From contig NZ_JAAVAU010000013.1 in assembly GCF_014803895.1 (NCBI RefSeq), forward strand, positions 1-63,769: DNA of 63,769 nt, given 5' to 3'. Below, piece by piece: positions 5,482 to 63,522 of this stretch. Source of the stretch: Lactobacillus sp. GTDB taxonomy: Bacteria > Bacillota > Bacilli > Lactobacillales > Lactobacillaceae. The notes beneath the pieces were generated by a model, which was not told the DNA's origin, made no database searches, and saw nothing but the letters and a program-made list of their open reading frames with translations. The translations under genes and the position numbers were made by a program. Positions within the stretch are counted from its first letter, which is position 1. Each line of letters opens with the position of its first letter.

Positions 5482-6015
5482 ATACCAAGAAATATGATTT
5501 TAAACGAAGATATCCGTGCTCGTGAAGTTCGTTTGATTGGTGCAGATGGCCAACAAGTTGGTGTTGTATCTAAGCAAGAAGCTTTACGTGCAGCTGCTGA
5601 TGCTGACATGGATTTGGTTCTTATTTCTCCAAATGCTAAGCCACCTGTTGCTCGTGTAATGGATTACGGTAAGTACCGCTTCGAACAACAAAAGAAAGCT
5701 AAAGAGAATCGTAAAAATCAAAAGGTAATTGCAGTTAAGGAAATTCGTTTAAGTCCAACAATCGAAGGAAATGACTTTGACACAAAGTTAAAGCATGTTC
5801 GTAAATTCTTAACTAAAGGCGCTAAAGTTAGAGTTTCTATTCGCTTTAGAGGCCGTGCTATCACTCACAAAGAATTAGGTAAGCAAGTTTTAGAGAAGAT
5901 GGCTGATGAAGCTAGCGACTTATCTAAGGTAATTACTAAGCCTAAGATGGAAGGCCGTTCTATGTTCTTGATGCTTGCTCCTTTGAGTGAAAAAGAAAAG
6001 AAGCAAAAGAAATAG
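5482..6015 (+). CDS. infC: Translation initiation factor IF-3, probable AUA start
   Basis: IF-3 binds the 30S subunit, prevents premature subunit joining and rejects non-canonical start codons. The protein begins with the typical ILNEDIRAREVRLIGADG and has the two-domain length of about 177 residues, ending in a Lys-rich tail. The first ATG in frame is at 5494, but the only strong Shine-Dalgarno (GGAGGTG, 5468-5474) is 21 bases away from it. It is 9 bases from an in-frame ATA at 5482, giving a start M-P-R-N-M. Rare AUU/AUA starts are known for infC in other bacteria and allow IF-3 to repress itself. It is the first gene of the infC-rpmI-rplT operon. Confidence 0.95.
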   Translation: MPRNMILNEDIRAREVRLIGADGQQVGVVSKQEALRAAADADMDLVLISPNAKPPVARVMDYGKYRFEQQKKAKENRKNQKVIAVKEIRLSPTIEGNDFDTKLKHVRKFLTKGAKVRVSIRFRGRAITHKELGKQVLEKMADEASDLSKVITKPKMEGRSMFLMLAPLSEKEKKQKK

Positions 6016-6033
6016 TTAATTGGAGGAATAGAT

Positions 6034-6234
6034 ATGCCAAAGCAAAAGACACACCGCGCTTCCGCAAAGCGTTTTAAGAGAACTGCTAATGGTGGTTTAA
6101 AGCGTCATCACGCTTACACTGGTCACCGTTTCCACGGTAAGACTAAGAAACAACGTCGTCATTTGAGAAAAGCTGCAATGGTTTCAGCAAGTGATATGAA
6201 GCGCATCAAACAGATGCTTTCCCAAATGCGTTAA
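6034..6234 (+). CDS. rpmI: 50S ribosomal protein L35
   Basis: 66 residues, strongly basic, beginning [15 protein letters not shown], with the [18 protein letters not shown] core typical of bL35. It lies 18 bases after infC with its own GGAGG site, as expected for this conserved operon. L35 is an assembly component of the large subunit. Length and sequence are standard and nothing unusual was seen. Confidence 0.98.
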
Positions 6235-6266
6235 TTTTAGAAAGACTTTTTGAGGAGGAATTTTAG

Positions 6267-6623
6267 ATGCCAAGAACTAAAGGTGGAACCGTAACACGTG
6301 CACGTCGTAAGAAGCTTTTGAAGTTAGCCAAGGGTTACCGTGGCTCAAAGCACGTTCAATTTAAAGCAGCAAGTACTCAAATCTTCGTATCACGTAAGTA
6401 TGCTTTCCGTGACCGTAAGAAGCGTAAGAGTGAATTCAGAAGATTATGGATCGCTCGTATCAACGCAGCTGCAAGACAAAATGGTCTTTCATACAGCAAG
6501 TTAATGCACGGTCTTAAGGTTGCAGGTGTTGACATGAACCGTAAGATGTTAGCTGACCTTGCTTACAACGATGAAAAGGCATTTGCTGATTTAGCAGAAA
6601 CTGCTAAGAAAGCTTTAGCATAA
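6267..6623 (+). CDS. rplT: 50S ribosomal protein L20
   Basis: 118 residues beginning [19 protein letters not shown], with the conserved [13 protein letters not shown] and the C-terminal globular half. L20 is needed early in 50S assembly and in Firmicutes is the repressor that acts on the leader in front of infC. The gene has a strong AGGAGG site 32 bases after rpmI and is followed by a terminator that closes the operon. Confidence 0.98.
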
Positions 6624-11626: not shown

Positions 11627-12793
11627 ATGGGTGTTGTTGGGATCGTAGCTGAATATAATCCCTTTCATAGTGGTCATGAGTTTTTACTCAATCAAGCGCG
11701 TCTAGTTGCTGGAAATGATCCAATTATCGTCATGATGTCTGGTAACTATGTTCAACGTGGACAGATGGCAATTATGGATAAGTGGAGTAGAGCCAAGGCC
11801 GCTTTGGCATCCGGCGCTGACTTAGTATTCGAGTTACCTTTTTCGTTTGCTGTTCAACCAGCAGATATTTTTGCGGGTGGAAGTGTTAAGCTCTTACATG
11901 ATCTAGGTGCACAAGATTTAGTTTTTGGAGTAGAAGATGCTAATTTGAATTTTTCATATTTAGCCCAGAAGATTTCACAAATTCCACAAGGTCGTTTTGA
12001 TTTTAAAGATTATACTCAAACTTACGCTACCCAATATAATCAGATGGTAGCGAGTGAAGTAGGTCATGAAGTCAATCAGCCTAATTTGATGCTAGCAATT
12101 GCCTATGCTGTGGCTAGTCAATCATTAGAAAATCCTTTAAACCTTCATCCGATTCATCGGATTGGAAGTGGACATGATGATATCTTAATGCGTGAAAATA
12201 TTGTTTCTTCTGCCACTTCAATTAGAAACTATATCTTACATCATCAAGATGGTGATTTAAGTGCCTTAAAAAATATCGTTCCTAAGCAGGAATTATTGCA
12301 ATTAGAAAAGCAAAAAGTTTATCCAAACTGGAACTTATTGTATAAATTCCTTAAATATCGCATCGAGAGTTCCAGTGTAGAAGAATTACGAAAAATTTAT
12401 CAAATGAGCGAAGGACTTGAATATAAAATGAAGGAAGAAATTCATGAAGCCTTTGATTTTACTGATTTTCTTCGTCGAATTAAGTCAAAGCGTTATACAT
12501 ATGCTCGCTTACGTCGCTTGTGTTTGTATACTTTGTTAAATATACAGTCAGATGAACTTTTTGCTTCGTTTGATAATATTTCTACCATGCTTTTAGGGTA
12601 CAGTACACGTGGTCGTAATTATTTAAAAAAGATGCGTAAAGATTTTGAAGTTCCCGTAATTTCTAAAGTTGATAAAAAGGGTGCTAGTTCAGGAACTTTA
12701 GCCCTACAAGTAAAAACTGATCGTTTATTTGAACAAGTGATGGGAGTAGATCAAAATTTTGGTCGTTTCCCAATTGAGGTGAAAAATGCTTAA
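11627..12793 (+). CDS. tmcAL: tRNA(Met) cytidine acetate ligase TmcAL
   Basis: 388 residues, formerly YlbM. It begins [18 protein letters not shown], the nucleotidyltransferase HxGH-type motif, and has [18 protein letters not shown] and a C-terminal RNA-binding half with SVEELRK and [10 protein letters not shown]. TmcAL activates acetate with ATP and makes N4-acetylcytidine at the wobble base of elongator tRNA-Met. It lies 9 bases after rsfS and overlaps the next gene by 8 bases. In many Firmicutes the neighbour yqeM lies in this operon; it is absent here. Confidence 0.95.
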
Positions 12794-51207: not shown

Positions 51208-51354
51208 GTAATTTCTCCTTTACTTGAGTCTGTCTAGTTAGATTTTACTAGTTTTTTCATTAAAAAAGAAGAAAAGAAAATTCTAAAACTAGTAAGTAAA
51301 TGATTAAAAGCTTATAATGAGTAATTAAGAATAGATAATTTGGAGGCAAATTTA

Positions 51355-53889
51355 ATGGCAGAAGTAAAACGCTTATATGAAACTTTTCATCCCGACCACT
51401 ATGATGTATTCTTAGACATCAGTCGTAAGGATAAAAAATTCTCTGGTAAAGTAACTGTTACCGGAGATGCCCAAGAAGAAGTGGTTAAATTAAACCAAAA
51501 GTACTTGAAGATTACTAATGTTAAAGTTGATGGTGCAGATGCTAAGTACGACTTTAACGATAAAGACGAAGTAATTAATATTGAAGCTGGTAAGACTGGC
51601 AGTATCAAGATTGAAGTTGAATTTAATGGTCCACTTACTGATTCGATGATGGGTATTTATCCTTCATATTACAAGATCAATGGTGAAACTAAGCAGTTAA
51701 TTGGTACCCAATTTGAAACTACTTTTGCGCGTCAAGCATTTCCATGTGTGGACGAACCAGAAGCTAAAGCAACTTTCAGCTTAGCAATTAAGTTTGACGA
51801 ACAACCAGGTGAAACTATTATTTCTAATCAACCAGAAGAAAAGATTGAGGATGGCGTTCACTACTTCAAAGAAACTGTTAGAATGTCTAGTTATTTAGTT
51901 GCCTTTGTCTTTGGTGATATGCAAAAGAAGCTTACCAAGACTAAGTCTGGTGTTGAAATTGGTGTCTTTGCAACTAAGGCTCACAAGCCTAAAGAATTAG
52001 ACTTCGCATTAGATATTGCTAAGCGTTCAATTGAATTCTACGAAGATTACTATGAAACTCCATATCCTTTAGAACACTCATATCAAGTAGCTCTTCCAGA
52101 CTTTTCAGCAGGTGCAATGGAAAACTGGGGTTGTGTAACTTACCGTGAAGCTTACTTACTTCTTGACCCAGATAATACTTCACTTGATATGAAGCAAGTG
52201 GTGGCCACTGTAATTACTCACGAATTAGCTCACCAATGGTTCGGTGACTTGGTAACTATGAAGTGGTGGGATAACTTATGGCTTAACGAAAGTTTTGCTA
52301 ACATGATGGAATATGTGGCAGTTGATGCTTTAGAACCTGAATGGAAAATTTGGGAAATGTTCCAAACTTCTGAAGTTCCTGCTGCTCTTCAAAGAGATGC
52401 AACTGATGGTGTGCAATCTGTGCACGTTATGGTTAATGATCCAGCAGAAATTGATGCCTTATTTGATGGTGCGATTGTATATGCCAAGGGTTCAAGAATG
52501 CTTGTGATGGTTAGAGCATTACTTGGCGATGATGCTTTGCGTGAAGGTTTGAAGAATTACTTTGCTGCTCATAAGTATGGTAATGCAACTGGTGATGATT
52601 TATGGAAAGCTTTAGGTGATGCTAGTGGCTTAGATATTGGAGCTATTATGCACTCATGGCTTGAACAGCCTGGTTATCCAGTAGTGAGCGTTAGTGTTAA
52701 GGATGGTAAGTTGACCTTATCTCAAAAGCAATTCTTTATCGGTGAAGGTAAGGAAGTTGGCAGAAAGTGGCAAATTCCATTAAACGCTAACTACTCGGCT
52801 GCTCCTCAAATTATGAAAGATGAAGAAGTAGTTATTGGCGACTATGACCAATTACGTAAGGAAAATGGTGTACCATTTAGAATCAATGTTGGTAACAATT
52901 CTGATTTCATTGTGAAATATGATAAGGAGTTATTAGATGATATCTTAGCAAGCATTGAATCTTTAAAGGCCGTTGATAAGTTACAATTACTCCAAGACTT
53001 TAAGTTGTTAGCACAAGCTGGTCAAATTTCATACGCTGACATTATTCCGTTACTTCCTAAGTTTGCGGATTCTACTTCTCCAATTGTAAATAATGCACTT
53101 TACTCAATTGCTAACACTTTGCGTAACTTTGTTGATCCAGAATCTGATGAAGAAGCACAATTACGTAAATTTTACAACCTTCTTTCAGAAAAACAAGTTG
53201 ACCGTCTTGGCTTCTTACCTAAAGAAGGTGAATCGAATGATGATAGCTTAACTCGTCCTTATGTTTTAAGTGCATCATTATATGCTCAAAATCCTCATAC
53301 TATTGATAAGCTTCATGACTTATACCAGGAAAATTCCGATAATTTGGATAGCTTATCAGCAGATATTCGTGGGGTAGTCTTAGATAACGAAGTAAGAAAC
53401 TTCGGTAATATGAGCTTGCATGATAAGTTAATGCATGAATATGTGACAACTAATGATCCAAGTTACAAACAAGATTTACGTGCAGCTATTACTTATACTA
53501 AACAACCAGATTTGATTGATGCTATTGTTGATAGTTTTGAAGATTCGGAAGTAATTAAGCCACAAGATTTACGTGCTTGGTACCGTGGCGTTCTTGCTAA
53601 CAACTATGGTCAAGAACAAGCTTGGAACTGGATCAGAACTCAATGGTCATGGCTTGAAGCTACTGTTGGTGGCGATATGGAATTTGCAACCTTCGTGACT
53701 GTAACTGCTAATGTCTTCCACACTAGAGAAAGATTAGAACAATTCAAGGACTTCTTTGAACCTAAACTTAATACTCCAGGTTTAACTCGTGAAATCAACA
53801 TGGACATCCGTGTAATTGAATCCAAGGTTAACTTGATTGAAAAAGAACAAGCTAGCGTTGTTGAAGCAATTAACAAGGTTGTTGATTAG
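51355..53889 (+). CDS. pepN: Aminopeptidase N
   Basis: 844 residues, M1 family: G253-A-M-E-N, zinc motif H289-E-L-A-H293 and the third ligand Glu in NESFAN (about 312), then a large C-terminal helical domain. Start at 51355 with GGAGG 8 bases upstream; TATAAT at 51313-51318. General cytosolic aminopeptidase that completes peptide breakdown. The 3' end (from about 53417) is the source, or relative, of a damaged copy at 60359-60535. A 14-bp direct repeat (CAAGATTTACGTGC) occurs in it at 53470-53483 and 53563-53576. Confidence 0.97.
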   Translation: MAEVKRLYETFHPDHYDVFLDISRKDKKFSGKVTVTGDAQEEVVKLNQKYLKITNVKVDGADAKYDFNDKDEVINIEAGKTGSIKIEVEFNGPLTDSMMGIYPSYYKINGETKQLIGTQFETTFARQAFPCVDEPEAKATFSLAIKFDEQPGETIISNQPEEKIEDGVHYFKETVRMSSYLVAFVFGDMQKKLTKTKSGVEIGVFATKAHKPKELDFALDIAKRSIEFYEDYYETPYPLEHSYQVALPDFSAGAMENWGCVTYREAYLLLDPDNTSLDMKQVVATVITHELAHQWFGDLVTMKWWDNLWLNESFANMMEYVAVDALEPEWKIWEMFQTSEVPAALQRDATDGVQSVHVMVNDPAEIDALFDGAIVYAKGSRMLVMVRALLGDDALREGLKNYFAAHKYGNATGDDLWKALGDASGLDIGAIMHSWLEQPGYPVVSVSVKDGKLTLSQKQFFIGEGKEVGRKWQIPLNANYSAAPQIMKDEEVVIGDYDQLRKENGVPFRINVGNNSDFIVKYDKELLDDILASIESLKAVDKLQLLQDFKLLAQAGQISYADIIPLLPKFADSTSPIVNNALYSIANTLRNFVDPESDEEAQLRKFYNLLSEKQVDRLGFLPKEGESNDDSLTRPYVLSASLYAQNPHTIDKLHDLYQENSDNLDSLSADIRGVVLDNEVRNFGNMSLHDKLMHEYVTTNDPSYKQDLRAAITYTKQPDLIDAIVDSFEDSEVIKPQDLRAWYRGVLANNYGQEQAWNWIRTQWSWLEATVGGDMEFATFVTVTANVFHTRERLEQFKDFFEPKLNTPGLTREINMDIRVIESKVNLIEKEQASVVEAINKVVD

Positions 53890-53906: not shown

Positions 53907-54006
53907 GATAAAGAAAAAGGCGATTCGTGAGAATCGTCTTTTTTGTGTGGATTGGGGTTGCCACTTTTGGGTTAAGTTAATATATAATTTATTAGCAGTG
54001 GGATGC
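53907..54006. repeat. 100-bp strip repeated at 60546-60645 (copy 1)
   Basis: Equal in length to the second copy and differing at one position only (G against T at 53957 / 60596). It holds the pepN terminator, a putative TTGCCA/TATAAT pair (53958-53963, 53983-53988, 19-bp spacer) and the last codons of the divergent small peptide. Confidence 0.9.
53916..53946. terminator. Bidirectional terminator between pepN and the divergent peptide
   Basis: Stem AAGGCGATTC / GAATCGTCTT with loop GTGA, A run before and T6 after. It would end pepN from one side and the minus-strand peptide from the other. Confidence 0.87.
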
Positions 54007-54099
54007 AAGAGCAATAAAAATATCACCACCAGCAAATATCATGCCACCCCATAAGCTAGCTAATAAAATATTTTTAATTAATTTTAATTTTGAACTCAT
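53992..54099 (-). CDS. 35-residue hydrophobic peptide divergent to rgg1 (candidate signal peptide)
   Basis: A short ORF: basic start (MSSKLKLIKNILL), then hydrophobic residues with two Gly-Gly pairs (SLWGGMIFAGG) and the end ALASHC. It is convergent with pepN, divergent from an Rgg regulator and terminated by a shared hairpin. This is the arrangement of Rgg/SHP quorum-sensing pairs of streptococci. AAAGGA lies 12 bases upstream, a little far. The second locus copy carries a relative with the same ends and a different middle, which supports that it is really translated. Processing at the Gly-Gly is speculation. Confidence 0.5.
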   Translation of the reverse strand: MSSKLKLIKNILLASLWGGMIFAGGDIFIALASHC

Positions 54100-54105
54100 T
54101 GTAAA

Positions 54106-54155
54106 GAAAGGTCCTTTCCATGGAAAAAATAAGTAGAAATTTAGGTCCTAAATTT
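54106..54155. promoter_or_regulatory. Two palindromes centred on GG-T-CC at the rgg1 / peptide divergent start
   Basis: GAAAGGTCCTTTC (54106-54118) and a perfect 19-bp inverted repeat with the centre TTAGGTCCTAA (54137-54155), centres 34 bp apart. The first holds the ribosome sites of both divergent genes; the second lies in the first codons of rgg1. Candidate Rgg binding sites. Confidence 0.4.
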
Positions 54156-54965
54156 AGAAAAATTAGGAAATCTAAAAAATTAACTATGAAACAGATTAGT
54201 GGAGAAATTATATCTAAGTCATCTCTTTCAAGATGGGAAAGAGGAGAACAAGATATATCTTTGGCTACATTTTATAAATTACTGGATGAGATTCACGTCT
54301 TTTCAGAAGAAGCATCTTCTAAAGAACTTATTCAATTTATAAGTAAAGTTAGTGACTTATATAGGAAAGACGAAATTAAACAGCTAAAGAATATATCACA
54401 AGCTTTACTAAAGCAATATGCAAAAGACCGTAGTTATGAAACTTTAATAAAAGTTACTACTGTATGTGATTTGTATATGGATTTGTCTGATGAAGATTTA
54501 ACAGATACAAAGTTTAAACATATTTTGACTCTACAAGTATGTAGAATTAAGACTTGGTATAAACAAGATTTATTTTTGTTTGCCAACAGCCAATTCTTTT
54601 TGGAGTCACCTGTGATTTATAAAAAAGCTTATTCATTAATTGAAGCTGTCTATAATATGACAGTGGTGCCAGATTTGGAATCACGTGCATTATTAAATGC
54701 AGTATTTGTATTGTTAAAGAAAAAAGATCTTACTCATGCAGAGACGCTGCTAAATAGTATAAAAGAATTAAACTTTTCTTCTTCTAATTTAGGAGCAGTA
54801 TACAGGGAAAATTACTTTAGTGAGGTCATAAGATATATTAAAACTGGAAATTCCTATGGTGTCGAGCAATGTATAGCTCGTTTAGGTAATTCAAAAATGG
54901 AGAAACAATTAGCCAAAGATTCAAAGTTTTCATTATCTCAGATAAAGAAAATTTACAAACTTTAA
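54120..54965 (+). CDS. Rgg/GadR/MutR-family regulator (copy 1)
   Basis: 281 residues. The N-terminal helix-turn-helix reads LGPKFRKIRKSKKLTMKQIS...SSLSRWERGEQDISL (about 6-60). The C-terminal two thirds are helical repeats (TPR-like, Rgg_C), the pheromone-binding part. Members respond to short hydrophobic peptides imported by Opp/Ami. The divergent peptide is the obvious candidate ligand, and the bacteriocin-like genes downstream the likely targets. RBS AAAGG is about 8 bases upstream. Moderate similarity to the second copy at 60760; both end in a (F)S..Q(I/V)(K/R)(K/E)IYK(L/I) motif. Confidence 0.9.
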   Translation: MEKISRNLGPKFRKIRKSKKLTMKQISGEIISKSSLSRWERGEQDISLATFYKLLDEIHVFSEEASSKELIQFISKVSDLYRKDEIKQLKNISQALLKQYAKDRSYETLIKVTTVCDLYMDLSDEDLTDTKFKHILTLQVCRIKTWYKQDLFLFANSQFFLESPVIYKKAYSLIEAVYNMTVVPDLESRALLNAVFVLLKKKDLTHAETLLNSIKELNFSSSNLGAVYRENYFSEVIRYIKTGNSYGVEQCIARLGNSKMEKQLAKDSKFSLSQIKKIYKL

Positions 54966-55007
54966 CTCTCCATAATGTATTTTGACATAGTTAAGTTTTA
55001 AAAAAGA

Positions 55008-55036
55008 AAAATTCCCATTTAATGGGAATTTTAAAA
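55008..55036 (+). terminator. Terminator after rgg1
   Basis: AAAATTCCCA / TGGGAATTTT hairpin with a short T run; separates rgg1 from the double-glycine peptide genes. Confidence 0.75.
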
Positions 55037-55127
55037 AATATTTTTCAAATTGTTGTAGATTATATATGTAGCAAGCAAAAGATTCTTGCTATCAATGGAT
55101 GATTTGTATATTAAGAAGGTGATATGT

Positions 55128-55223
55128 ATGTCAAGACTTGATGAATACAAAACTGTTTCAATTTCTGAATTATCCCAAGTTGTTGGTGGCATAGACACGG
55201 ATAAACAGAAAGGAAAAGAATAG
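55128..55223 (+). CDS. Double-glycine precursor peptide 1 (31 residues)
   Basis: The leader ends in SISELSQVVGG, a classical class II double-glycine motif recognised by C39-peptidase transporters. Only ten residues, charged and Lys/Asp-rich (IDTDKQKGKE), follow before the stop, too short for a normal bacteriocin, so it may be an inducing peptide or a truncated product. Start at 55128 with AAGGTG upstream; an overlapping ATG at 55124 gives only five codons. It lies in front of the transporter genes. Confidence 0.75.
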   Translation: MSRLDEYKTVSISELSQVVGGIDTDKQKGKE

Positions 55224-55389
55224 TACTCTTCAAAAGTTTAATACTATTTCTACTGATAATTTAACTAATGTAACCGGTGGTGAAATTGCCAAAGAAATTT
55301 GGGACAGTGCTAGAGATTTTGGTACTGGTGTAATTGACGGTTTTGAGGGACACTATCACAGTCATAAATATAGACATAGAGATAGATAA
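55219..55389 (+). pseudogene. Double-glycine bacteriocin-like peptide 2, no normal start codon
   Basis: In the +1 frame relative to peptide 1, an open stretch encodes KFNTISTDNLTNVTGG, a leader resembling those of gassericin/acidocin-type class II bacteriocins, followed by 35 residues: an amphipathic part (EIAKEIWDSARDFGTGVIDG) and a tail rich in His, Arg and Tyr. No ATG, GTG or TTG precedes the leader in frame; AGT stands where ATG would be expected after AAAGGAAAAG. Thus either start loss or an unusual start. It may be a dead gene or a fused tail of peptide 1. Confidence 0.6.
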
Positions 55390-55402
55390 GTTTTAGTAAC
55401 TT

Positions 55403-55453
55403 GCAAAAAGGTGAAAGAAAAGTACAAGTTAGTTTTCCTTTCACCTTTTTGCT
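55403..55453 (+). terminator. Long hairpin after the double-glycine peptides
   Basis: GCAAAAAGGTGAAAG pairs with CTTTCACCTTTTTGC, separated by about 20 bases, with T run inside the 3' arm. It lies between the peptides and the first Abi gene and may attenuate expression of the transport genes. Confidence 0.75.
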
Positions 55454-55476
55454 AGGTATTTTTAAGGATATTAGCA

Positions 55477-56148
55477 ATGAGATTTATTGGAAATATTTTA
55501 AAGTGGTTAGTAATACTGTTTTTAGGTTTTGTAATTTTAATTATTATGGAATTTCCAGCTATTTTTGTAACTCCTAGTCCTAGTAATGCTACAGTAAAGT
55601 TCAATTTTTGGCATAATGTCAGTTTAGTAATAGGTTTTGCAATTCTATCATTTATTTTGGAATATTTAGTATGCTGGTGGGCCGGAAATAAAATCAATTT
55701 TTTTAAAAAGATATCTTTTAAAAAATTAATTTTAGCAATAAGCTCAGGAATTGCTCTTTATATTGTAGAAACATTAATGACGATGAATATGAAAGGAGGT
55801 ACTGGTGAAACAAGTCTTTATGGACAGACAATGAGAACAAGTCTCTGTATTCCCTTATGGATAACAATAGCTGTTATTACTCCAACATTAGAAGAATTGT
55901 TCTTTCAGGGATTGATACAGAAAGGAATCTTGAAGTTTTTAAATCCGTGGGTTTCTATGATTATTACTGCTGTCTTTTTCGGGGTAATGCATGCAATGTC
56001 ATTCAGTTTGATATTCTTTGTACATTGGATTTCAGGGATGGTCTTAGCCTATGTTTATTACAAAACAGATGATATTAAAGTTCCAATTATAACTCATGGA
56101 ATGTTTAATCTAATTTTATTAATACAAACAGGGATGCAATTTTTGTAA
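55477..56148 (+). CDS. CPBP (Abi) family membrane protease, probable bacteriocin immunity
   Basis: 223 residues with six to seven helices. The CPBP motifs are PTLEELFFQGLIQKG (EExxxQ instead of the usual EExxxR), HAM in FFGVMHAMS and HGMFN in TM6. Such proteins next to bacteriocin genes (for example PlnI, SkkI) protect the producer. It does not share the MNNNLALSDYV start of the other Abi genes of this locus. RBS AAGGA about 8 bases before the ATG; 12 bases separate it from the transporter gene. Confidence 0.85.
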   Translation: MRFIGNILKWLVILFLGFVILIIMEFPAIFVTPSPSNATVKFNFWHNVSLVIGFAILSFILEYLVCWWAGNKINFFKKISFKKLILAISSGIALYIVETLMTMNMKGGTGETSLYGQTMRTSLCIPLWITIAVITPTLEELFFQGLIQKGILKFLNPWVSMIITAVFFGVMHAMSFSLIFFVHWISGMVLAYVYYKTDDIKVPIITHGMFNLILLIQTGMQFL

Positions 56149-56159
56149 GAGGATAAAAT

Positions 56160-58300
56160 ATGAAAAATAGAGATTACGTTCCACAAGTTGATGAAATGGA
56201 TTGTGGTGCTGCATGTTTAGCAATGATTTTGAAGCATTAAATGTATCAATTGCTTATATACGTAACTTAGCGCGTACTACGGATAAAGGAACTACAGCAC
56301 TTGGAATAGTTAAAACTGCTGAAAAATTGGATTTTGAAACTAAAGCTATTAAAGCAGATATGAGTTTGTTTGATGGCTCAGATATTCCGTTACCTTGTAT
56401 TGTTCATGTGGTAAAAAAGAATTATTTGCACTACTATGTAGTATTAAAAGTTAAAAAGAATTATCTGTTAATTGCGGATCCTGATTCGACTGTTGGTGTA
56501 GTAAAGATGGATAAGGCCACTTTTGCACATCAATGGAGTGGGATTGCTATATTTATGGTACCGAAGCCTGATTACACGCCAATTAAGCAATCAAAGCAAA
56601 CATTACTTTCATTCTTACCCAGATTGTTTAAGCAACGTAAGTTAATTATTAATATTATCTTAGCTGCATTTTTAATTACTGTAATCAGTATTGCAGGTTC
56701 ATATTTTTTACAAACAATAATTGATACTTATATTCCTAATAATATGCATAATACCTTGGTTGTCATAGCTATGGGATTGTTTGTATTTTATATTTTTGAA
56801 GCTTTGTTTACTTATGCTCAAAATTTTTTGTTAACTATTTTTGGACAAAGATTTTCAATTGATATTATTCTAGGATATATTCGTCATATTTTTACTTTGC
56901 CAATGAGTTTTTTTGCTACAAGAAGAACAGGTGAAATAACGTCACGTTTTACTGATGCTAATAAAATCATCGATGCGTTAGCAAGCGCAGTAATATCTAT
57001 TTTTCTAGATGCAAGTATCGTGGTAATTATGGGGATTGTATTGGCCATTCAGAATGCTACTTTGTTTTGGATAACTTTAGTTTCATTGCCGATTTATATT
57101 GTAATCATTTTAGGATTTATTAAACCATTTGAAAAATTAAATCAAAAAGAAATGGAAAGTGGGGCCGTTTTAAGTTCCTCCGTTATTGAGGATATCCGTG
57201 GAATGGAAACAATTAAAGCTCTTAATAGTGAAGATGAACGGTATTTTAAAGTAGACACAGAATTTGTAGATTTTTTAAAAAGAGGGTTGAAATATTCAAA
57301 GGCTGATATTTTACAACAAGCATTAAAATTAGTGGTTCAGCTATCGTTAAATTTAGTAGTTTTAACTGTCGGAGCAATTTTAGTAATGCATAATAAGTTA
57401 TCGGTTGGTCAACTGATGACTTATAATGCTTTATTAGCTTATTTTGTGAATCCTTTACAAAATGTAATCAATCTTCAAACTAAATTACAAAGTGCTCGTG
57501 TAGCAAATAATCGGTTGAATGAAGTTTATTTAGTTAAAAGTGAATTTCAAGCAAAGCGGTCTATTAATAACCTTCAACAGATTATAGGAAATATTATTTT
57601 TGAAAATATTGAATATCAATATGGTTATGGACAAAAAATTTTAAATGGTATCAATTTAAAAATTAATGTTGGGGATAAATTGACTATTGTTGGTATGAGT
57701 GGCTCAGGTAAATCAACTTTAATGAAATTATTAGTTGGCTTCTTTGAGCCGGTCAAAGGCGATATTTTATTAAACTCACAATCAATAAAAAATATTGATC
57801 GTCATACTTTAAGAACTTATATCAATTACACGCCACAAGAACCTTATATTTTTTCTGGAACAATTTTAGAAAATTTAAAATTAGGAAATCGTGATGGTGT
57901 GACTCATGATGATATTGTGGAAGCTTGTAAGATAGCAATGATTGAAAAAGATATTGAAAAAATGCCCTTGCAATTTAATACAAAATTAGATGAAATGGGG
58001 AGTGTATTATCAGGAGGCCAGCGCCAAAGATTAACAATTGCAAGAGCTTTGCTTTCACCTGCCCAAGTATTAATCTTAGATGAAGCTACAAGTGGTCTGG
58101 ATGCCATAACTGAAAGAAAAGTAGTAGATAATCTGATAAATTTAAAAAATAAGACAATTATTTTTATTGCACATAGATTGGCCATTGCACGAAGAACTGA
58201 TAATATCGTGGTTTTGGATGATGGGAAAATTGTGGAGCAAGGTTCTCATGAAGAATTATTAGCTAAAAAAGGATATTATTATAACTTGGTTGAAGGTTAG
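56160..58300 (+). pseudogene. C39-peptidase bacteriocin ABC transporter, frameshifted near the N-terminus
   Basis: The true start is ATG 56160 (MKNRDYVPQVDEMDC...), with catalytic Cys15 in DCGAACLAMIL. The frame ends at TAA 56238-56240 and the homology continues in another frame from about 56240 (NVSIAYIRNLARTTDKGTTALG) to 58300, fitting loss of one base, or seven, near LKH. The rest is complete: His and Asp of C39 (HYYVVLKV, ADPDS), six helices, Walker A GMSGSGKST, LSGGQRQR and ILDEATS. Expected length about 715 residues. If the shift is real, leader cleavage and export fail; a start inside the second frame would lack the active Cys. Confidence 0.85.
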
Positions 58301-58311
58301 GAGTTAAAGCA

Positions 58312-59433
58312 ATGAATAAGAAATATCTTGAAAGTAGTGAATTTTATTCTGCGAGATTTACTAATTTTTCGACCATAATAATTATTCCGATTTTTGTTTT
58401 ATTGGTATTAATAGTATTATTTTCTTTCGTTGGTCAGCGACAGATAACTGTGGAAAGTGTTGGAAATATTGAACCAGTCGGTAGCGTACCAACTATTCAA
58501 GCAAGTGTAAATGGGAAGATAACTTATAGTGCATTGAGAGAAGGAAAATATGTAGCTAAAAATCAAATTTTGCTTAAATATAATAATCAAACTAGTAAAA
58601 GTAAACTAAGTTTATATCAATCTGAAAAGAAAGAATTGGATGAACAAATTGATGATTTAGAGTTACTTAAATCTGGTATCTCTGTTAATAGGGATGTATT
58701 TAATTATGATGATAAATTTGGCTATAGAAGTTTGTTAAAGAATTACTTAAGTCAAAGAAATACATATATTTTAGAAAATAATCAATTAACTCAAAAGCAA
58801 GAAGAGAATAAACAAAGAAGAAAAAATAATAAAAAAACCAAGGAAGATGCCGAAATAACTACCCAAATTGAAGAAAATAATCAAAAATTATCTATGCTTC
58901 AAGATAAATATTTGGAAGAGAACGCGCAGGATATTATTAAAGCTAAACAGCAGCTTACTCAGGTGAGAGCTCAAATTACTGAATTAAACAGTAATCTAAG
59001 AAGTTATACTGTAAAAGCCCCTAAAAGCGGCATTTTACATATAAATGATGAGTATACCGAAAATAAGTATATTAGCCCTGGCGTGGAAGTAGCTAAAATA
59101 TATCCAATTATAAGTAAGCAAAATAAAGTTAAATTAAAAGCATATATTTCTACGGCAGATATTTCATCGGTAAAAAAGGGACAAATAATGCAATTCAAAG
59201 TTGCTAGAAATGTTCCAAAACCGATAATAATTTCGGGAAAAATAAATAACATAAGCGTGTCTACTACTCAGATTGATAAAAATACTAATGGCTATGTAGT
59301 ATCTGCTACTGCTAATTTATTACCAGCACAGCGCAAAATTTTGAAATATGGTATGAGTGGTAATATTTCAATCATTATTGGAAAGATAAGCTTCTTTAAT
59401 TACTATAAGAACAAACTACTTAACGGAGAATAA
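58312..59433 (+). CDS. Bacteriocin secretion accessory protein (HlyD/LcnD type)
   Basis: 373 residues. One membrane helix (about 20-42), a beta strand block (GNIEPVGSVPTIQASVNGKI), a long Gln/Lys/Glu coiled coil (about 100-225) and a beta-rich C-terminus (VKAPKSGILHINDE, then ISGKINNIS and KYGMSGNISIIIGK). It works with the C39 ABC transporter just upstream, 12 bases away. The C-terminus has a diverged, truncated copy at 61720-61965. Confidence 0.9.
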   Translation: MNKKYLESSEFYSARFTNFSTIIIIPIFVLLVLIVLFSFVGQRQITVESVGNIEPVGSVPTIQASVNGKITYSALREGKYVAKNQILLKYNNQTSKSKLSLYQSEKKELDEQIDDLELLKSGISVNRDVFNYDDKFGYRSLLKNYLSQRNTYILENNQLTQKQEENKQRRKNNKKTKEDAEITTQIEENNQKLSMLQDKYLEENAQDIIKAKQQLTQVRAQITELNSNLRSYTVKAPKSGILHINDEYTENKYISPGVEVAKIYPIISKQNKVKLKAYISTADISSVKKGQIMQFKVARNVPKPIIISGKINNISVSTTQIDKNTNGYVVSATANLLPAQRKILKYGMSGNISIIIGKISFFNYYKNKLLNGE

Positions 59434-59459
59434 GTAAGCCATAATTAAAATGGAGATAT

Positions 59460-59497
59460 ATACGATGATATCTAAAAAGATACCGTCGTATTTTTTA
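59460..59497 (+). terminator. Terminator after the accessory gene
   Basis: TACGATGATATC and GATACCGTCGTA pair with one mismatch and one wobble, then T6. A further palindrome TTTTGC-GCATAT-GCAAAA follows at 59503-59520. Confidence 0.75.
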
Positions 59498-59531
59498 ATT
59501 ATTTTTGCGCATATGCAAAATTTTTTAAATG

Positions 59532-59557
59532 GTCTATTATAAAAGTATGTAATAGAC
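59532..59557 (+). promoter_or_regulatory. Conserved leader inverted repeat in front of the Abi gene (copy 1)
   Basis: GTCTATTA and TAATAGAC, 10 bases apart, directly before the ribosome site ACAGGAG. The same element stands before the intact Abi gene at 62731 (62693-62716), but not before the broken one at 61984. Confidence 0.6.
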
Positions 59558-59570
59558 AGGAGAATTTATT

Positions 59571-60381
59571 ATGAATAATAATCTAGCATTATCAGATTAT
59601 GTAGATTTAGATGATAAACAAGCAAGAAATAAAAGTATATTAAAGATGGTAATTGCTTTTTTAGTATTAGCTGTTAGCTATGAGTTAGCTCCATTAATAA
59701 CATTATCTAGAAAAATTAAAAATGTTCCTATAGAAATACTTATATATGTAGCTATAGCAGGTATTATTACATATATAGGGTGTTATATAGGTAATACTAC
59801 TAAAGTTACTAAAAAACCTATCAAATTAGGAAAAGTTACTTTAACTATTTTTATTGTCTTTATAGTATTATGGTTATCCTTGTTAATTATGAATAAAGTA
59901 GGATTGTTTAAAATGCCACTACTGAAAATCCTAGATGTTTTTACTTTAGCAATTTTTGGTGGAATAATAGAGGAGGTTTTATTTAGAGAATTAATTTTTA
60001 ATATTTTTATTGAAGTTTTTAGTAAAAGAAAATATCTTTTTGTGTGGGCTTCATTAGCAGAAAGTTTTTGTTTTGCTATATTCCATTTTCTTAATTTGAC
60101 TCATCAGTCATTACTTTCAACTTTAGGACAAGTGATAATTGTTTTTGGTACTGGATTGTTAATAACTTATATACGATTAGCCAGTAACGGTATCTGGTTA
60201 GGAATGCTATTCCATATATATTGATATTTCACCATCATTAGCCACCTCATCAAACTATGGTAATTCATATATCTCAGGAGAATTTATTTTTATGCTAGTT
60301 ATGCTTGCAATAGCGCTTCCAGCAATTTACTCTTACAACAAGAGATATAACGAAGGAATTACACGACAAGTTGATGCATAA
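59571..60381 (+). pseudogene. CPBP (Abi) membrane protease with a C-terminal frameshift
   Basis: Frame 1 (59571-60224, 217 residues) begins MNNNLALSDYVDLDD and contains GGIIEEVLFREL (EExxxR) and IFHFLNLTHQS, but stops after FHIY. Two bases appear to be missing: in the next frame DISPSLATSSNYG...YSYNKRYNEGI continues the family C-terminus to 60381, where the last residues (TRQVDA) come from fused pepN-like sequence. The conserved catalytic motifs are before the break, so partial function is possible. Compare the intact gene at 62731 (263 residues). Confidence 0.85.
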
Positions 60382-60535
60382 CTACGTAACTATTAATGAT
60401 CCAAGTTACAAGCAAGATTTACGCGCGTGGTACGGTGGTATTGTTGCTAACAACTATGGTCAAGAACAAGCTTGGAACTGATGGTCATGGCTTGAAGCTA
60501 CTATTGGTGGTGACATGGAGTTCGCAACCTTGTAA
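60359..60535 (+). pseudogene. Decayed fragment of the pepN 3' region
   Basis: Encodes LHDKLMHNYVTINDPSYKQ and WYGGIVANNYGQEQAWN, matching PepN residues from about 689. Compared with pepN it lacks 93 bp between two copies of CAAGATTTACGTGC, has a 12-base loss that creates TGA (60479-60481), and lacks the end of the gene. Many third positions differ, unlike the strip after it, which is almost identical. Confidence 0.9.
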
Positions 60536-60545
60536 TTGAATAAAT

Positions 60546-60645
60546 GATAAAGAAAAAGGCGATTCGTGAGAATCGTCTTTTTTGTGTGGATTGTGGTTGC
60601 CACTTTTGGGTTAAGTTAATATATAATTTATTAGCAGTGGGATGC
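60546..60645. repeat. 100-bp strip repeated from 53907-54006 (copy 2)
   Basis: 99 of 100 positions identical to copy 1, no gaps. Includes the bidirectional terminator (60555-60585) and the promoter-like TTGCCA...TATAAT. Confidence 0.9.
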
Positions 60646-60741
60646 GAGGGTGTTCATGGTAGCAATAAAAGAGCTACCAACTACGTAAGCCGCATTTCCC
60701 CCGTGAGTGGTAAGTAAAATATTTTTAATTTTTAAATATAT
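60631..60741 (-). CDS. Second divergent small peptide, different core, no ATG start
   Basis: Open frame homologous to the peptide at 53992: shared IKNILL and LASHC ends, but the middle reads TTHGGNAAYVVGSSFIATMNT. The first in-frame ATG lies inside the core; the position of the ATG of copy 1 is taken by ATA (60739-60741). AAAGGA is 12 bases upstream of that ATA. So it may be dead, or start at a rare codon. It is divergent to rgg2 and shares the duplicated terminator. Confidence 0.35.
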   Translation of the reverse strand: MYLKIKNILLTTHGGNAAYVVGSSFIATMNTLASHC

Positions 60742-60759
60742 AAGGGAGATATTCCTTTC

Positions 60760-61611
60760 ATGAAAAAAATAGATAAAAGTATTGGTCACAATTTTAGAAA
60801 GCTTCGAGAATCCAAAGGATTTTCGGGTCCAGAAGTATGTGATGGAATAGCTGCAAAATCTACACTTTCCCGATGGGAAAATGGAAAATCAAATTTATCG
60901 GTAAATTTGTTTTATAAGTTCTTGGATAGAATTCATGCAACGCCAGAAGATGTAATGCCTCAGAAAGAAGATATTTCTGACTTCATTGATAGTGTAAGTC
61001 TATTATTTATGCATAATGATATCAAAGGACTATATGAAAAAGCTAAGCAATCATTAGTAATGTATTCACAAAGCAAGACAGATAAAGATTTGCTTTGTGC
61101 AGCAATGGCAAGCAACTTTTATTTTGATTTAACGAATATCAATCTGATAGATAATTCTTTCAAAGAAGATATCTCTTCAAAAGTTAGGAAAATTAAGAGT
61201 TGGCAAGAAAGCGATTTAATTCTCTTTGCTAATACTCAATTCTTATTAGATGCTTCCTTAATTTACAGATTAGCTAGAGAATTAGCTAGTTTTGATTTCG
61301 AAAAGGAAGTAGTTCCTACTATGGAAATGGAAACTTTACTTAATTCTATTTACACATTAATAAGAAAAAAAGATGTTATGCGTGCGAAGAAGTTATTTCG
61401 CAGCGTAAAGCAACTTGAATATTCTCTTAATAATCAATCAATAGAATATAAAGAAAAGTTTTATGATCTTTTATTACATTACATTGATAGACCTAATCCA
61501 ATAAAAATAAAACAATTTTTAACTTCTATTTCAAACTCACGAAGTGGAAACCAATTAGCAGCAGACTTAAATTTTTCATTTCAACAAGTTAGAGAAATAT
61601 ATAAAATTTAG
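60760..61611 (+). CDS. Rgg/GadR/MutR-family regulator (copy 2)
   Basis: 283 residues. Helix-turn-helix IGHNFRKLRESKGFSGPEVCDGIAAKSTLSRWENGKSN, then the helical Rgg_C part with the same blocks as rgg1 (IDSVSLLF, FYFDLTN, KIKSWQESDLILFANTQFLL). It is intact while most of its own cassette downstream has been lost, so it might act on targets of rgg1 or others. The divergence from rgg1 is much greater than that of the DNA strip in front of it. Confidence 0.9.
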   Translation: MKKIDKSIGHNFRKLRESKGFSGPEVCDGIAAKSTLSRWENGKSNLSVNLFYKFLDRIHATPEDVMPQKEDISDFIDSVSLLFMHNDIKGLYEKAKQSLVMYSQSKTDKDLLCAAMASNFYFDLTNINLIDNSFKEDISSKVRKIKSWQESDLILFANTQFLLDASLIYRLARELASFDFEKEVVPTMEMETLLNSIYTLIRKKDVMRAKKLFRSVKQLEYSLNNQSIEYKEKFYDLLLHYIDRPNPIKIKQFLTSISNSRSGNQLAADLNFSFQQVREIYKI

Positions 61612-61658
61612 TACGTTAAGCTTCCAAATAGTAGTTTTACATATAATTAATTTTTTAT

Positions 61659-61703
61659 TAAAGTCAGTTGCGTTTACGCAACTTGCTTTAAGGCGATTTT
61701 TTT
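61659..61703 (+). terminator. Hairpin after rgg2
   Basis: TAAAG-AGTTGCG / CGCAACT-CTTTA with a two-base internal loop, TTTA loop; a T7 run follows after six further bases. Probably a terminator. Confidence 0.55.
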
Positions 61704-61719
61704 CTAAGTGCTAGTATAG

Positions 61720-61965
61720 GGCTGTAGCTTTGAACTTAATGATCGAAACAACGGAACTACCATAATTACTGGAAAGATACAGAGTATTTCGGTTTATCCT
61801 GAGACGAATAAAAGGCAATCAGAATACGAAGTAATATCTTTGATAAAGCCAACTAAAAAAGAGAAGAGTTCTTTAAGATATGGAATGCAGGGACAAGTCT
61901 CTGTAATTACAGGTAAGGAAACGTATTTTAATTATCTGAAATCATTATTTTTAGATGAAAAATGA
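61720..61965 (+). pseudogene. C-terminal fragment of a bacteriocin secretion accessory gene
   Basis: Open frame after a TAG (61717-61719) encoding GTTIITGKIQSISVYPET...LRYGMQGQVSVITGKETYFNYLKSL, the same as the end of the accessory protein at 58312 but diverged. No start codon or N-terminal part remains, so it is a remnant. It shows that the second cassette once held a transporter unit too. Confidence 0.88.
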
Positions 61966-61983
61966 TAAACAGGAGATGTTACT

Positions 61984-62557
61984 ATGAATAATAACTTAGC
62001 ATTGTCAGACTATGTAAATTTAGATGATAGTGAGGCTAAAAAGAAAAGTATAATTACGATGATAGTTACGCTTGTAATATTAGTGATCATTTATCAAAGT
62101 TTAATTCCGTTAATAATAGAGAAGTTGGCTTTGTGGCCTGCTGTAATCCTTACCTTAGTTGTATCTGTGTTAGTCGCTTGTGTAGCGCGTTATTTTGCTA
62201 AAACTTTTTAGTAAAACTAAATATGTTTTTATTTGGGCTTCATTATGTGAATGTATTTGCTTCAGTCTATATCATTTTCTTAATTTAGGACACCAGTCTT
62301 TAGAATCTACTATAGGACAAGTTATATCAGTTTTTAGTATGGGATTAATTTGGACTTATGTCCGTTTTGCAAGCAATGGAATTATATTAGGAATTATTTG
62401 GCATATTTATCAAGATATATCACCCCAGCTTCTTAGTTCCAATATTGGTGTCACTGATATAAAGGCTGCAATAATTTATACAACCATTTTAAGTTTGTTT
62501 GCATTTATCTGCATTTACTCTTATAACAAGAGATACAACGAAGGAATTTTAAGATAA
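61984..62557 (+). pseudogene. CPBP (Abi) gene with an internal deletion removing the active site
   Basis: The 5' part (61984-62211) encodes MNNNLALSDYVNLDD and three helices; the 3' part continues in another frame (from about 62213) with SKTKYVFIWASLCECICFSLYHF and YSYNKRYNEGILR. Compared with the intact gene at 62731, about 80 codons including the EExxxR motif are lost, with a frameshift. The ribosome site AGGAG is intact. Not expected to be a protease; a short membrane peptide of 75 residues could still be made. Confidence 0.87.
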
Positions 62558-62569
62558 GTATTCAACTAG

Positions 62570-62604
62570 AAGATAGACGTTAATAGTAACGTTTATCTTT
62601 TTCA
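62570..62604 (+). terminator. Terminator after the broken Abi gene
   Basis: AAGATA-ACGTTA / TAACGT-TATCTT hairpin with loop ATAG and T5. A similar hairpin follows the next Abi gene. Confidence 0.8.
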
Positions 62605-62692
62605 TCTATAAAGTTTCTAATTTAGTAGCAAGTAAAATTTTCTGCTACTAAACTAATATCAGGTCAGAAGAAGCTTTTAAAATACAAAAGGA

Positions 62693-62716
62693 TCTATTAT
62701 AGAAGTATGTAATAGA
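62693..62716 (+). promoter_or_regulatory. Conserved leader inverted repeat in front of the Abi gene (copy 2)
   Basis: TCTATTA / TAATAGA directly before ACAGGAG, same layout and nearly the same bases as at 59532-59557. Confidence 0.6.
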
Positions 62717-62730
62717 CAGGAGATGTTACT

Positions 62731-63522
62731 ATGAATAATAATCTAGCATTATCAGACTATGTAAATCTAGATGATAAACGAGCAAGGAATACAAGTATCA
62801 TAAAGATGGTAATTGCCTTTATAGTATTAATGGCTGCTTATTTAGCGATACCATTTTTACAATATGTAATTAAAAGCGTTCCAATTTTGCTTATAACATA
62901 TTTAGTTTTAGCAATAATTGTTGCATATATAGCTTATCGATTAGCCGATACAACTAAAGTAACTAAGAAACCAATCAAGCTAGGAAAGGTTACGCTAATT
63001 ATCTTTATTATATTTATAGTATTGTGGCAACTTGTTTTACTCTTTAATAAAGTAAGCATATTTAAATTATCTGAAATGAAGTTAATTGATGTTTTGGCAC
63101 AAGCTATATTTGCTGGGATAATTGAAGAAGCACTTTTTAGAGGATTATTATTAAATGTGTTTATTGATGTTTTTTATAGCAAGAAATACATGTTTATTTG
63201 GGCAGCTGTTTTAGAAAGTTTGTGTTTTGCCTTATTTCACTTTTTAGATTTGGCTCACCAATCATTTGCTTCAACTTTAGGTCAAGTTATTATTGTGCTT
63301 GGGTCCGGTTTGATAATGACTTATATGCGTTTTGCTATTAATGGTATTTGGTTAGCTACTATTTATCACATTTATTCAGATATTTCACCTCAATTGGCAA
63401 GTTCGAACTTCGGAAATTCTGATGTAATTGGTGAATTTATTTTTATGATTGTGATAGCGGTTATTGGACTCTCCTGCATTTATTCCTACAACAAGAGATA
63501 TAACGACGGAATTTTAAGATAA
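62731..63522 (+). CDS. CPBP (Abi) family membrane protease, intact copy
   Basis: 263 residues, about eight helices. Starts MNNNLALSDYVNLDD, with AGIIEEALFRGLLLN (EExxxR, metal and catalytic site), ALFHFLDLAHQS (His) and IYHIYSDISPQLASSN, then ends YSYNKRYNDGILR. Probable bacteriocin self-immunity or signalling protease. The shared polar N-terminal tag in three paralogues is not part of the CPBP fold and suggests a common partner or export feature. It has a leader inverted repeat and AGGAG site upstream and a terminator downstream. Confidence 0.9.
   Translation: MNNNLALSDYVNLDDKRARNTSIIKMVIAFIVLMAAYLAIPFLQYVIKSVPILLITYLVLAIIVAYIAYRLADTTKVTKKPIKLGKVTLIIFIIFIVLWQLVLLFNKVSIFKLSEMKLIDVLAQAIFAGIIEEALFRGLLLNVFIDVFYSKKYMFIWAAVLESLCFALFHFLDLAHQSFASTLGQVIIVLGSGLIMTYMRFAINGIWLATIYHIYSDISPQLASSNFGNSDVIGEFIFMIVIAVIGLSCIYSYNKRYNDGILR

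Follow-up and report, generated by a model that had tools for sequence, protein, structure and literature searches.

A 63,769-nucleotide (nt) contig of Lactobacillus sp. (NZ_JAAVAU010000013.1; hereafter, in full length, the window) carries two genes for Rgg-family regulators, rgg1 and rgg2, and each of them is faced on the opposite strand by a small open frame. The locus raises the question of whether these frames and the adjacent regulators are signal/receptor pairs, as a preliminary description of this DNA proposed, and whether the peptides belong to a signal class of their own. With a probability of about 0.72, peptide 1 and Rgg1 are signal and receptor of an RRNPP-type quorum-sensing system, in which a pro-pheromone resembling the short hydrophobic peptides (SHPs) of streptococci belongs to a Lactobacillus-centred family and lies in duplicated, damaged cassettes.

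Peptide gene 1 (53992..54099, minus strand) is an open reading frame (ORF) of 35 amino acids (aa) with the sequence MSSKLKLIKNILLASLWGGMIFAGGDIFIALASHC. Its ATG (54097-54099) is placed 20 nt from the start codon of rgg1, and the head-to-head gap of 20 nt (54100..54119) holds stretches that by eye resemble ribosome-binding sites for both genes (aaaggtcctttcc). Peptide frame 2 (60631..60741, minus strand) is open 18 nt from rgg2 and reads IYLKIKNILLTTHGGNAAYVVGSSFIATMNTLASHC. Its expected start (60739-60741) is an ATA codon, on which the preliminary description had ended the frame, and there is no ATG, GTG or TTG at this place; the sole listed start is a GTG at 60789, inside rgg2. Peptide 1 falls within the definition of an antisense ATG ORF used here (24–60 aa, 5–30 nt from rgg), frame 2 with its ATA falls outside it, and the latter is probably inactive. 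Both minus-strand frames are nevertheless present as described, and ORF translations confirm that they stay open despite length differences. They share the final five residues, LASHC, whose codons differ at one synonymous site. The middles are strongly diverged, as stated earlier, but they are related, since Gly-Gly and G-x-x-FIA occur in both. Peptide 1 contains a single Asp, at residue 26, and neither sequence has Asp or Glu before Gly-Gly.

The regulators themselves are rgg1 (54120..54965, plus strand, 281 aa; Pfam Rgg_C, 1.3e-10) and rgg2 (60760..61611, plus strand, 283 aa; Rgg_C, 6.3e-08). The HTH_3 domain is above the cut-off for rgg1 and below it for rgg2 (21.5 vs. 23 bits). The two proteins share 35% identity over 283 aa and are sisters, with support of 100/92, in a tree of 73 Rggs. 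An AlphaFold2 model, built for Rgg1 only (mean confidence, pLDDT, 92.8), matches the structures of Rgg144 (TM-score 0.70), NrpR, Rgg2, Rgg3 and PrgX.

Related pairs were sought with the Rgg alignment in 75 Lactobacillus genomes, 49 of which matched at 1e-20; the loci gave 86 distinct Rgg frames, and 73 entered the tree. At 20 other Lactobacillus loci an antisense small ORF of 28–52 aa faces rgg. In 15 of these the ATG is 13–20 nt upstream of the rgg start. The remaining five comprise L099 (ATG at 9 or 21 nt), L082 (TTG at 13 nt), L052 (124 nt), and L037 and L104, where the peptide ORF overlaps the assigned rgg start. The gaps between rgg and peptide gene in the relatives also contain ribosome-binding-like stretches, judged by eye. 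The common plan is a stretch of Lys and hydrophobic residues, usually followed by Gly-Gly near residue 15 and then by a variable tail of about 10–20 residues, as in MSKFKFIKLISSIVWGGALVVVGANVINSLAQRFLY (L098), MKNIKSIIISIIIGGGLTVNVPIVLSLLSHLS (L100, from genome G010) and MQRSKLISLLSKLIIGGGIVISHIALPAITALSTFSH (L035). The Gly motif begins at residues 13–18 in entries with a start; by that pattern it is absent from L091, L062 and L082. Acidic residues occur in 8 of the 22 entries (20 relatives, peptide 1 and frame 2) at no common position. A terminal Cys was considered as a class feature and dropped: none of the 20 relatives ends in Cys, which is seen at this locus only, and four other Cys-ending antisense ORFs of 15–20 aa are without the class plan. 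Two side observations concern related loci. At L139 (genome G036; 5640-6503 and 11934-12101) a peptide gene and an apparent rgg start occur again about 5.5 kb away, in a tandem-like copy. L036 and L040 carry a second type of divergent peptide, in which an LQLWRDM-GxGASKLIYLPP middle is conserved and the ends diverge, beside rggs of another clade.

The ORF is associated with one part of the Rgg tree. Under a strict definition (antisense ATG ORF of 24–60 codons starting 5–30 nt from the gene), it accompanies 15 of the 30 Rggs in the rgg1/rgg2 clade, compared with 7/35 other Rggs and 21/454 other genes; the enrichment of 15/30 over 21/454 has a Fisher value of 3.9e-11. Rows without a recognised start codon were left out of this control (1/31 in the clade, 9/44 among the others). 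In the tree the clade has 32 rows, with 17 peptide rows beside frame 2, and L091_73 is without such a frame. L048 has a peptide beside a mere fragment of rgg, which could not be placed in the tree because of its short length, was counted as an "other" rgg and stayed outside the covariation test described below.

Substitutions between related peptides have a coding signature. The synonymous difference (pS) exceeds the non-synonymous one (pN) in all seven peptide pairs compared, with pS/pN values of 0.57/0.18, 0.47/0.18, 0.98/0.24, 0.58/0.19, 0.49/0.36, 0.63/0.47 and 0.42/0.23; L062 enters this set in two pairs, and the plan of L036/L040 is related to that of the class without being the same. 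The same result bears on the view that the frames are by-products of a conserved 5′ leader of rgg, where regulatory DNA or RNA is selected and the antisense reading is chance. Several features of the window agree with this view: the repeated block described below is mostly non-coding and 98% identical, frame 2 is without a start codon, and the rgg promoter is probably beyond the peptide stop, as read from the sequence, so that both leaders would be complementary and the ORF would lie wholly within the rgg leader. However, the relatives resemble each other more in amino acids than in DNA, the ATG stands mostly at a fixed distance, and the ORF is enriched over other genes, which makes this view very improbable.

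The preliminary description suggested a test for covariation of the peptide core with the C-terminal domain of Rgg, and covariation of the peptides with this domain was found. In a set of 21 entries that includes frame 2 (one of the 22 was left out), peptide distance correlates with distance in the peptide-binding, C-terminal domain of Rgg when the N-terminal domain is controlled for (partial r 0.51, p 0.0002), and not with distance in the DNA-binding, N-terminal domain when the C-terminal one is controlled for (partial r −0.06, p 0.71). When the C-terminal columns were reduced to as many as the N-terminal domain has, the medians were 0.38 (C-terminal) and 0.11 (N-terminal); without frame 2 the values were 0.57 and −0.19. 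Thinning to one row per close pair (n = 16) gave 0.37 (p 0.0024) for the C-terminal and −0.26 for the N-terminal domain, and thinning combined with cut columns gave 0.25 and −0.17. Simple linkage would give no advantage to the C-terminal half of rgg, because it is the DNA-binding half that lies closer to the peptide gene.

The covariation also helps to decide whether the peptides are signals at all. They could instead be small membrane-active peptides under Rgg control, of the type I toxin or bacteriocin-like kind: they are short and very hydrophobic with a basic N-terminus, some adjoin transporter or CPBP genes, and overlapping head-to-head transcripts would resemble antisense control. But it is the peptide-binding and not the DNA-binding domain with which the peptides covary, and the model fold of Rgg1 is that of a peptide receptor. 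We therefore consider this alternative unlikely, though less so than the conserved-leader view. Far less probable still is that peptide 2 is an 8-residue leaderless product, MNTLASHC, translated from the in-frame ATG inside frame 2 in the manner of the leaderless communication peptides (LCPs) of the RopB clan. In the accessible text of PMC10518010 most LCPs are 8–10 aa and divergent from their Rgg, which fits; by eye, however, no ribosome-binding stretch precedes this ATG, and frame 1 has no matching ATG.

The distribution of the peptides was assessed with profiles. A model of 15 peptides gave 24 matches in the 75 genomes at E values up to 0.05, in 16 genomes: 14 training members, a second copy of a training member (G036), four others beside rgg (G001:C24, G017:C67, G002:C31 and G069:C8, two of which, in L068 and L051, have shifted frames), and five inside open frames of 383–696 aa, which look like chance. 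Among 397 genomes of the family, seven matched the peptide profile at 0.001, and three of these were new (G186, G371 and G274). In G186 the ORF faces an rgg and reads MKSKLVSLLLSGIVFGGGIVITRAVELTDLITKL; no rgg was found within the stretch examined around the match in G371 and G274. The wider Rgg alignment A3 matched 15 of 301 family genomes at 1e-40, 13 of which came from the 75-genome set of the genus.

The shared ends of peptide 1 and frame 2 have a different origin from the features of the class. A direct repeat of 103 nt (98% identity) takes in the terminator that follows pepN and reaches as far as the final peptide codons. Copy 1 (53907..54009) includes a terminator-like stem at 53921-53936 and the last codons of peptide 1, and copy 2 (60546..60648) has a terminator-like site at 60560-60575; both sites are on the minus strand. 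The KNIL stretch near the other end of the peptides is also within a short run of identical DNA. In front of copy 1 lies a complete gene of 849 codons (51340..53889, plus strand), which we take to be pepN, for aminopeptidase N, following the name given in the preliminary description. In front of copy 2, repeats and alignment revealed a decayed 3′ remnant of pepN (60359..60540, plus strand) with internal deletions and surviving pieces of 82–91% identity; a part of the pepN flank thus accompanies the second cassette too, and the window holds two copies of the cassette anchored at pepN. The peptide ends match because the flank was duplicated or homogenised, and not through selection on the protein ends. 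It follows that the shared ends, though present, give no independent coding evidence; the flanking DNA is near-identical on one side, at 98% over 103 nt rather than the 99% given earlier. As expected from the shared repeat block, peptide 1 and frame 2 rank high in similarity, sixth among 210 peptide pairs. The relatives keep the hydrophobic/Gly-Gly core and vary in the C-terminal tail, which is the reverse of peptide 1 and frame 2. The idea of a signal/receptor pair is supported by the class plan, purifying substitution and covariation; conserved ends with a swapped core are not supported as the signature of a new specificity.

The place after pepN was tried as a conserved site of rgg and rejected: 19 of 20 pepN-downstream regions were without an Rgg match at 1e-5. 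They represent 19 genomes, namely the 16 with the closest pepN and three more, and one of the regions was only 606 bases long. Downstream of pepN in L116 (G035), two weak Rgg matches of 23 bits lie about 4 and 8 kb away. PepN itself was matched in 72 of the 75 Lactobacillus genomes, with an 89% identical protein in the nearest, G010, and 79–84% identity in the next 15.

The pairs can be compared with several known systems. Like the streptococcal Rgg/SHP groups I and II, they combine a divergent small gene beside Rgg with a hydrophobic peptide containing an aliphatic stretch and Gly-Gly, and the Rgg1 model fold matches Rgg2, Rgg3 and Rgg144. According to the accessible text of PMC3150281, SHP2 and SHP3 activity resides in the last 8–9 residues, DI[I/L]IIVGG, which end in Gly-Gly; the Lactobacillus class differs in having an internal Gly-Gly followed by a tail of about 10–20 residues. 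The accessible part of PMC13361665 describes a conserved acidic residue in SHPs of groups I and II, whereas the present class has no conserved Asp/Glu position, and the start codons of 15 of the 20 relatives are 13–20 nt apart from those of rgg. Of the two features described earlier as unlike SHPs, the Gly-Gly is internal in the class, and the terminal Cys is seen at this locus only.

The LCP/RopB systems, including that of Limosilactobacillus reuteri, are similar in pairing an Rgg-type receptor with a divergent tiny gene, and LCPs are known from Lactobacillaceae (PMC10518010, accessible text). Unlike the leaderless LCPs, the class members are 28–52 aa long (22 entries) and have a hydrophobic, leader-like half; one LCP with an extra C-terminal stretch, reported in the same text, is a partial precedent for the tail. 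MutRS of Streptococcus mutans resembles the pairs by description (an RRNPP-type regulator with its own pheromone and bacteriocin control; PMC13234698 and PMC12445099, accessible parts) and differs in that the bacteriocin under MutRS control is a lantibiotic. Pheromones processed by C39 peptidases, such as BlpC, likewise have a double glycine, here near residue 15; a gene for a C39 transporter is also nearby. Such pheromones carry an E-L-x-x-I leader signature before Gly-Gly; peptide 1 has neither this signature nor an acidic residue there.

As far as the accessible text of these papers goes, RRNPP_detector gave six candidate regulated biosynthetic clusters in Lactobacillaceae (PMC10075063), the method of PMC9765709 found no propeptides beside Rgg, and PMC12700828, PMC12445099 and PMC13234698 do not mention the class. 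In the accessible portions of the best-ranked open-access literature the class is undescribed, and the supplementary tables of PMC10518010 and PMC10075063 may list some of the ORFs.

Downstream of rgg1 is a set of bacteriocin genes, all on the plus strand. Bacteriocin-like peptide A (55128..55223) has kept its double-glycine leader and has a truncated core; it matches residues 1–31 of the 58-residue peptide of L140. Bacteriocin-like peptide B (55201..55391), also of the double-glycine-leader type, is 34% identical to residues 3–60 of the L143 peptide and has a weak NCBIfam match to lactococcin G-beta/enterocin 1071B (19.7 bits vs. a cut-off of 37); it has no standard start codon, ATA alone remaining among the starts tried. 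These are followed by a CPBP-family membrane protease (55477..56148; Pfam PF02517, 3.9e-19), possibly the immunity protein, by a bacteriocin export ATP-binding cassette transporter with a C39 peptidase (56160..58300; TIGR01193) and by an HlyD-type secretion accessory protein (58312..59433; TIGR01000), 57% identical to that of L143. The frame of the transporter is broken near 56237-56240, and its two pieces, in different frames, are 88% and 82% identical to the transporter of L143 (genome G070), where a similar operon faces rgg with the peptide gene in between. At 82% for the transporter and 30% for Rgg1 against the Rgg of the same G070 locus, regulator and signal appear to change faster than the exporter or to be exchanged. 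In L140 (G001, L. ultunensis) part of the operon is present, its transporter frame is shorter, and rgg is split between two frames.

Next comes a CPBP-family gene (59571..60366, plus strand) with the frame broken near 60208-60224 into two overlapping pieces in different frames. Beyond rgg2 lie an HlyD-type remnant (61762..61953, plus strand; 41% identical to residues 307–370 of the L143 protein) and, according to ORF listing and alignment, a broken CPBP-family gene in two frames (61984..62557, plus strand). Altogether, three related CPBP-family genes are arranged in tandem at 59571-63522, with repeated DNA at both ends and broken frames in two of them. Judged by its frames, cassette 1 keeps receptor and peptide while its bacteriocin genes are damaged, and cassette 2 keeps the receptor, with the peptide start and most of the operon apparently lost. 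Cassette 2 may represent a remnant, or its receptor may serve for eavesdropping.

A perfect palindrome (9+1+9; AAATTTAGGTCCTAAATTT) at 54137..54155, inside the rgg1 coding sequence, is a candidate operator; it lies about 34 nt from a second AGGTCCT in the head-to-head gap, and a search for a shared operator found no counterpart in the eight relatives scanned. In another Rgg group, L055, L087, L090, L094 and L095 have GCAGATCTGCAA-like palindromes just upstream and no listed divergent peptide of the class plan, and L042 has a TGCATATATGCA-like palindrome. A scan of viral contigs with rgg1 returned no relative. Plasmid and phage records gave matches whose identity was between 25.2% or less and 29.8% over most of the query, and 33–40% over short parts; in two plasmid regions (L173 and L174) neither an annotated small gene nor such a frame was found beside rgg. 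The peptide-less plasmid rgg of L173 stands between annotated SLAP domain genes. The rggs of L142, L145 and L150, all peptide-bearing, adjoin genes that by eye have signal-peptide-like starts.

Several results weigh against reading peptide 1 and Rgg1 as a quorum-sensing pair. Peptide 1 did not receive a clear answer from profiles: without peptide 1 and frame 2 in the model it scored 5.0 bits, 12th among 1502 segments, and with a profile of the L098, L140 and L143 peptides it ranked 11th, frame 2 being third. In Smith–Waterman comparisons with the 1502 segments (frame 2 outside the test) it took rank 1 for L098, 5 for L140 and 3 for L143, so its putative membership rests on place, start codon, spacing, Gly-Gly position and pairwise scores. 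By the strict definition, half of the clade (15/30) has no ORF. Adding Gly-[GDSN] at residues 12–20 gives 13/30, 3/35 and 0/454, a motif that was picked after the sequences had been seen. Shared ancestry partly remains in the covariation test. The promoter scan returned five promoter-like sites against 7.1 expected in shuffles, and the minus-strand site nearest to peptide gene 1 overlaps its start codon; the peptide promoter would probably have to lie inside rgg1. A TTGCCA..TATAAT promoter-like stretch seen by eye before rgg1, in repeat copy 1, was not returned by the scan. The preliminary description held that random frameshifts or stops at homologous loci would show the frame to be non-coding. 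Such damage exists at single loci, where frame 2 has lost its start, L051 and L068 are frame-shifted and L054 has no recognisable frame (sequencing error is possible in these three), and does not extend to the class. Finally, the broken bacteriocin genes make present use of the system in this strain doubtful.

This last point leads to a reading of the whole locus as a decayed bacteriocin island: the class would work elsewhere, neither pair would be in use here, and the swapped cores would be neutral divergence. It accounts for the broken C39 transporter, the truncated peptide A, the start-less peptide B, the two broken CPBP genes, the HlyD remnant and the ATA of frame 2. On the other hand, the ORFs of rgg1, rgg2 and peptide 1 are intact, a relative of Rgg1 (P0002) shares 74% identity with it, and the frame damage could partly be assembly error. 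We regard decay of both pairs as a serious possibility, but one that we doubt rather than accept.

The favoured reading remains a quorum-sensing pair of peptide 1 and Rgg1. Computation shows an ORF class linked to rgg, with purifying substitution and C-terminal covariation, as well as the gene neighbourhood and the frame damage; export, cutting, binding, activation and the residues of the mature signal are inferred. The hydrophobic N-terminal half would direct export of the 35-aa pro-pheromone, which would then be cut and re-imported. The mature peptide would be bound by the C-terminal domain of Rgg1, and peptide-bound Rgg1 would switch on both the peptide gene and the bacteriocin operon next to it. 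More tentatively, and at somewhat less than even odds, these loci represent an Rgg pro-pheromone class of Lactobacillus's own, in which an SHP-like aliphatic/Gly-Gly core is placed inside the precursor and followed by a removable, fast-changing tail. The head-to-head starts, mostly 13–20 nt apart, would put the control DNA of each gene inside the other, the modules would be exchanged before bacteriocin operons, and cassettes without a peptide would keep the receptor as an eavesdropper.

Peptide signalling through Rgg has been worked out mainly in streptococci, and the precedents from Lactobacillaceae in the accessible literature are leaderless peptides, e.g., the 8-residue one of L. reuteri. 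With synthetic peptides, the 20 further peptide/receptor pairs and their covariation would open signalling, cross-talk and bacteriocin control in lactobacilli to direct tests.

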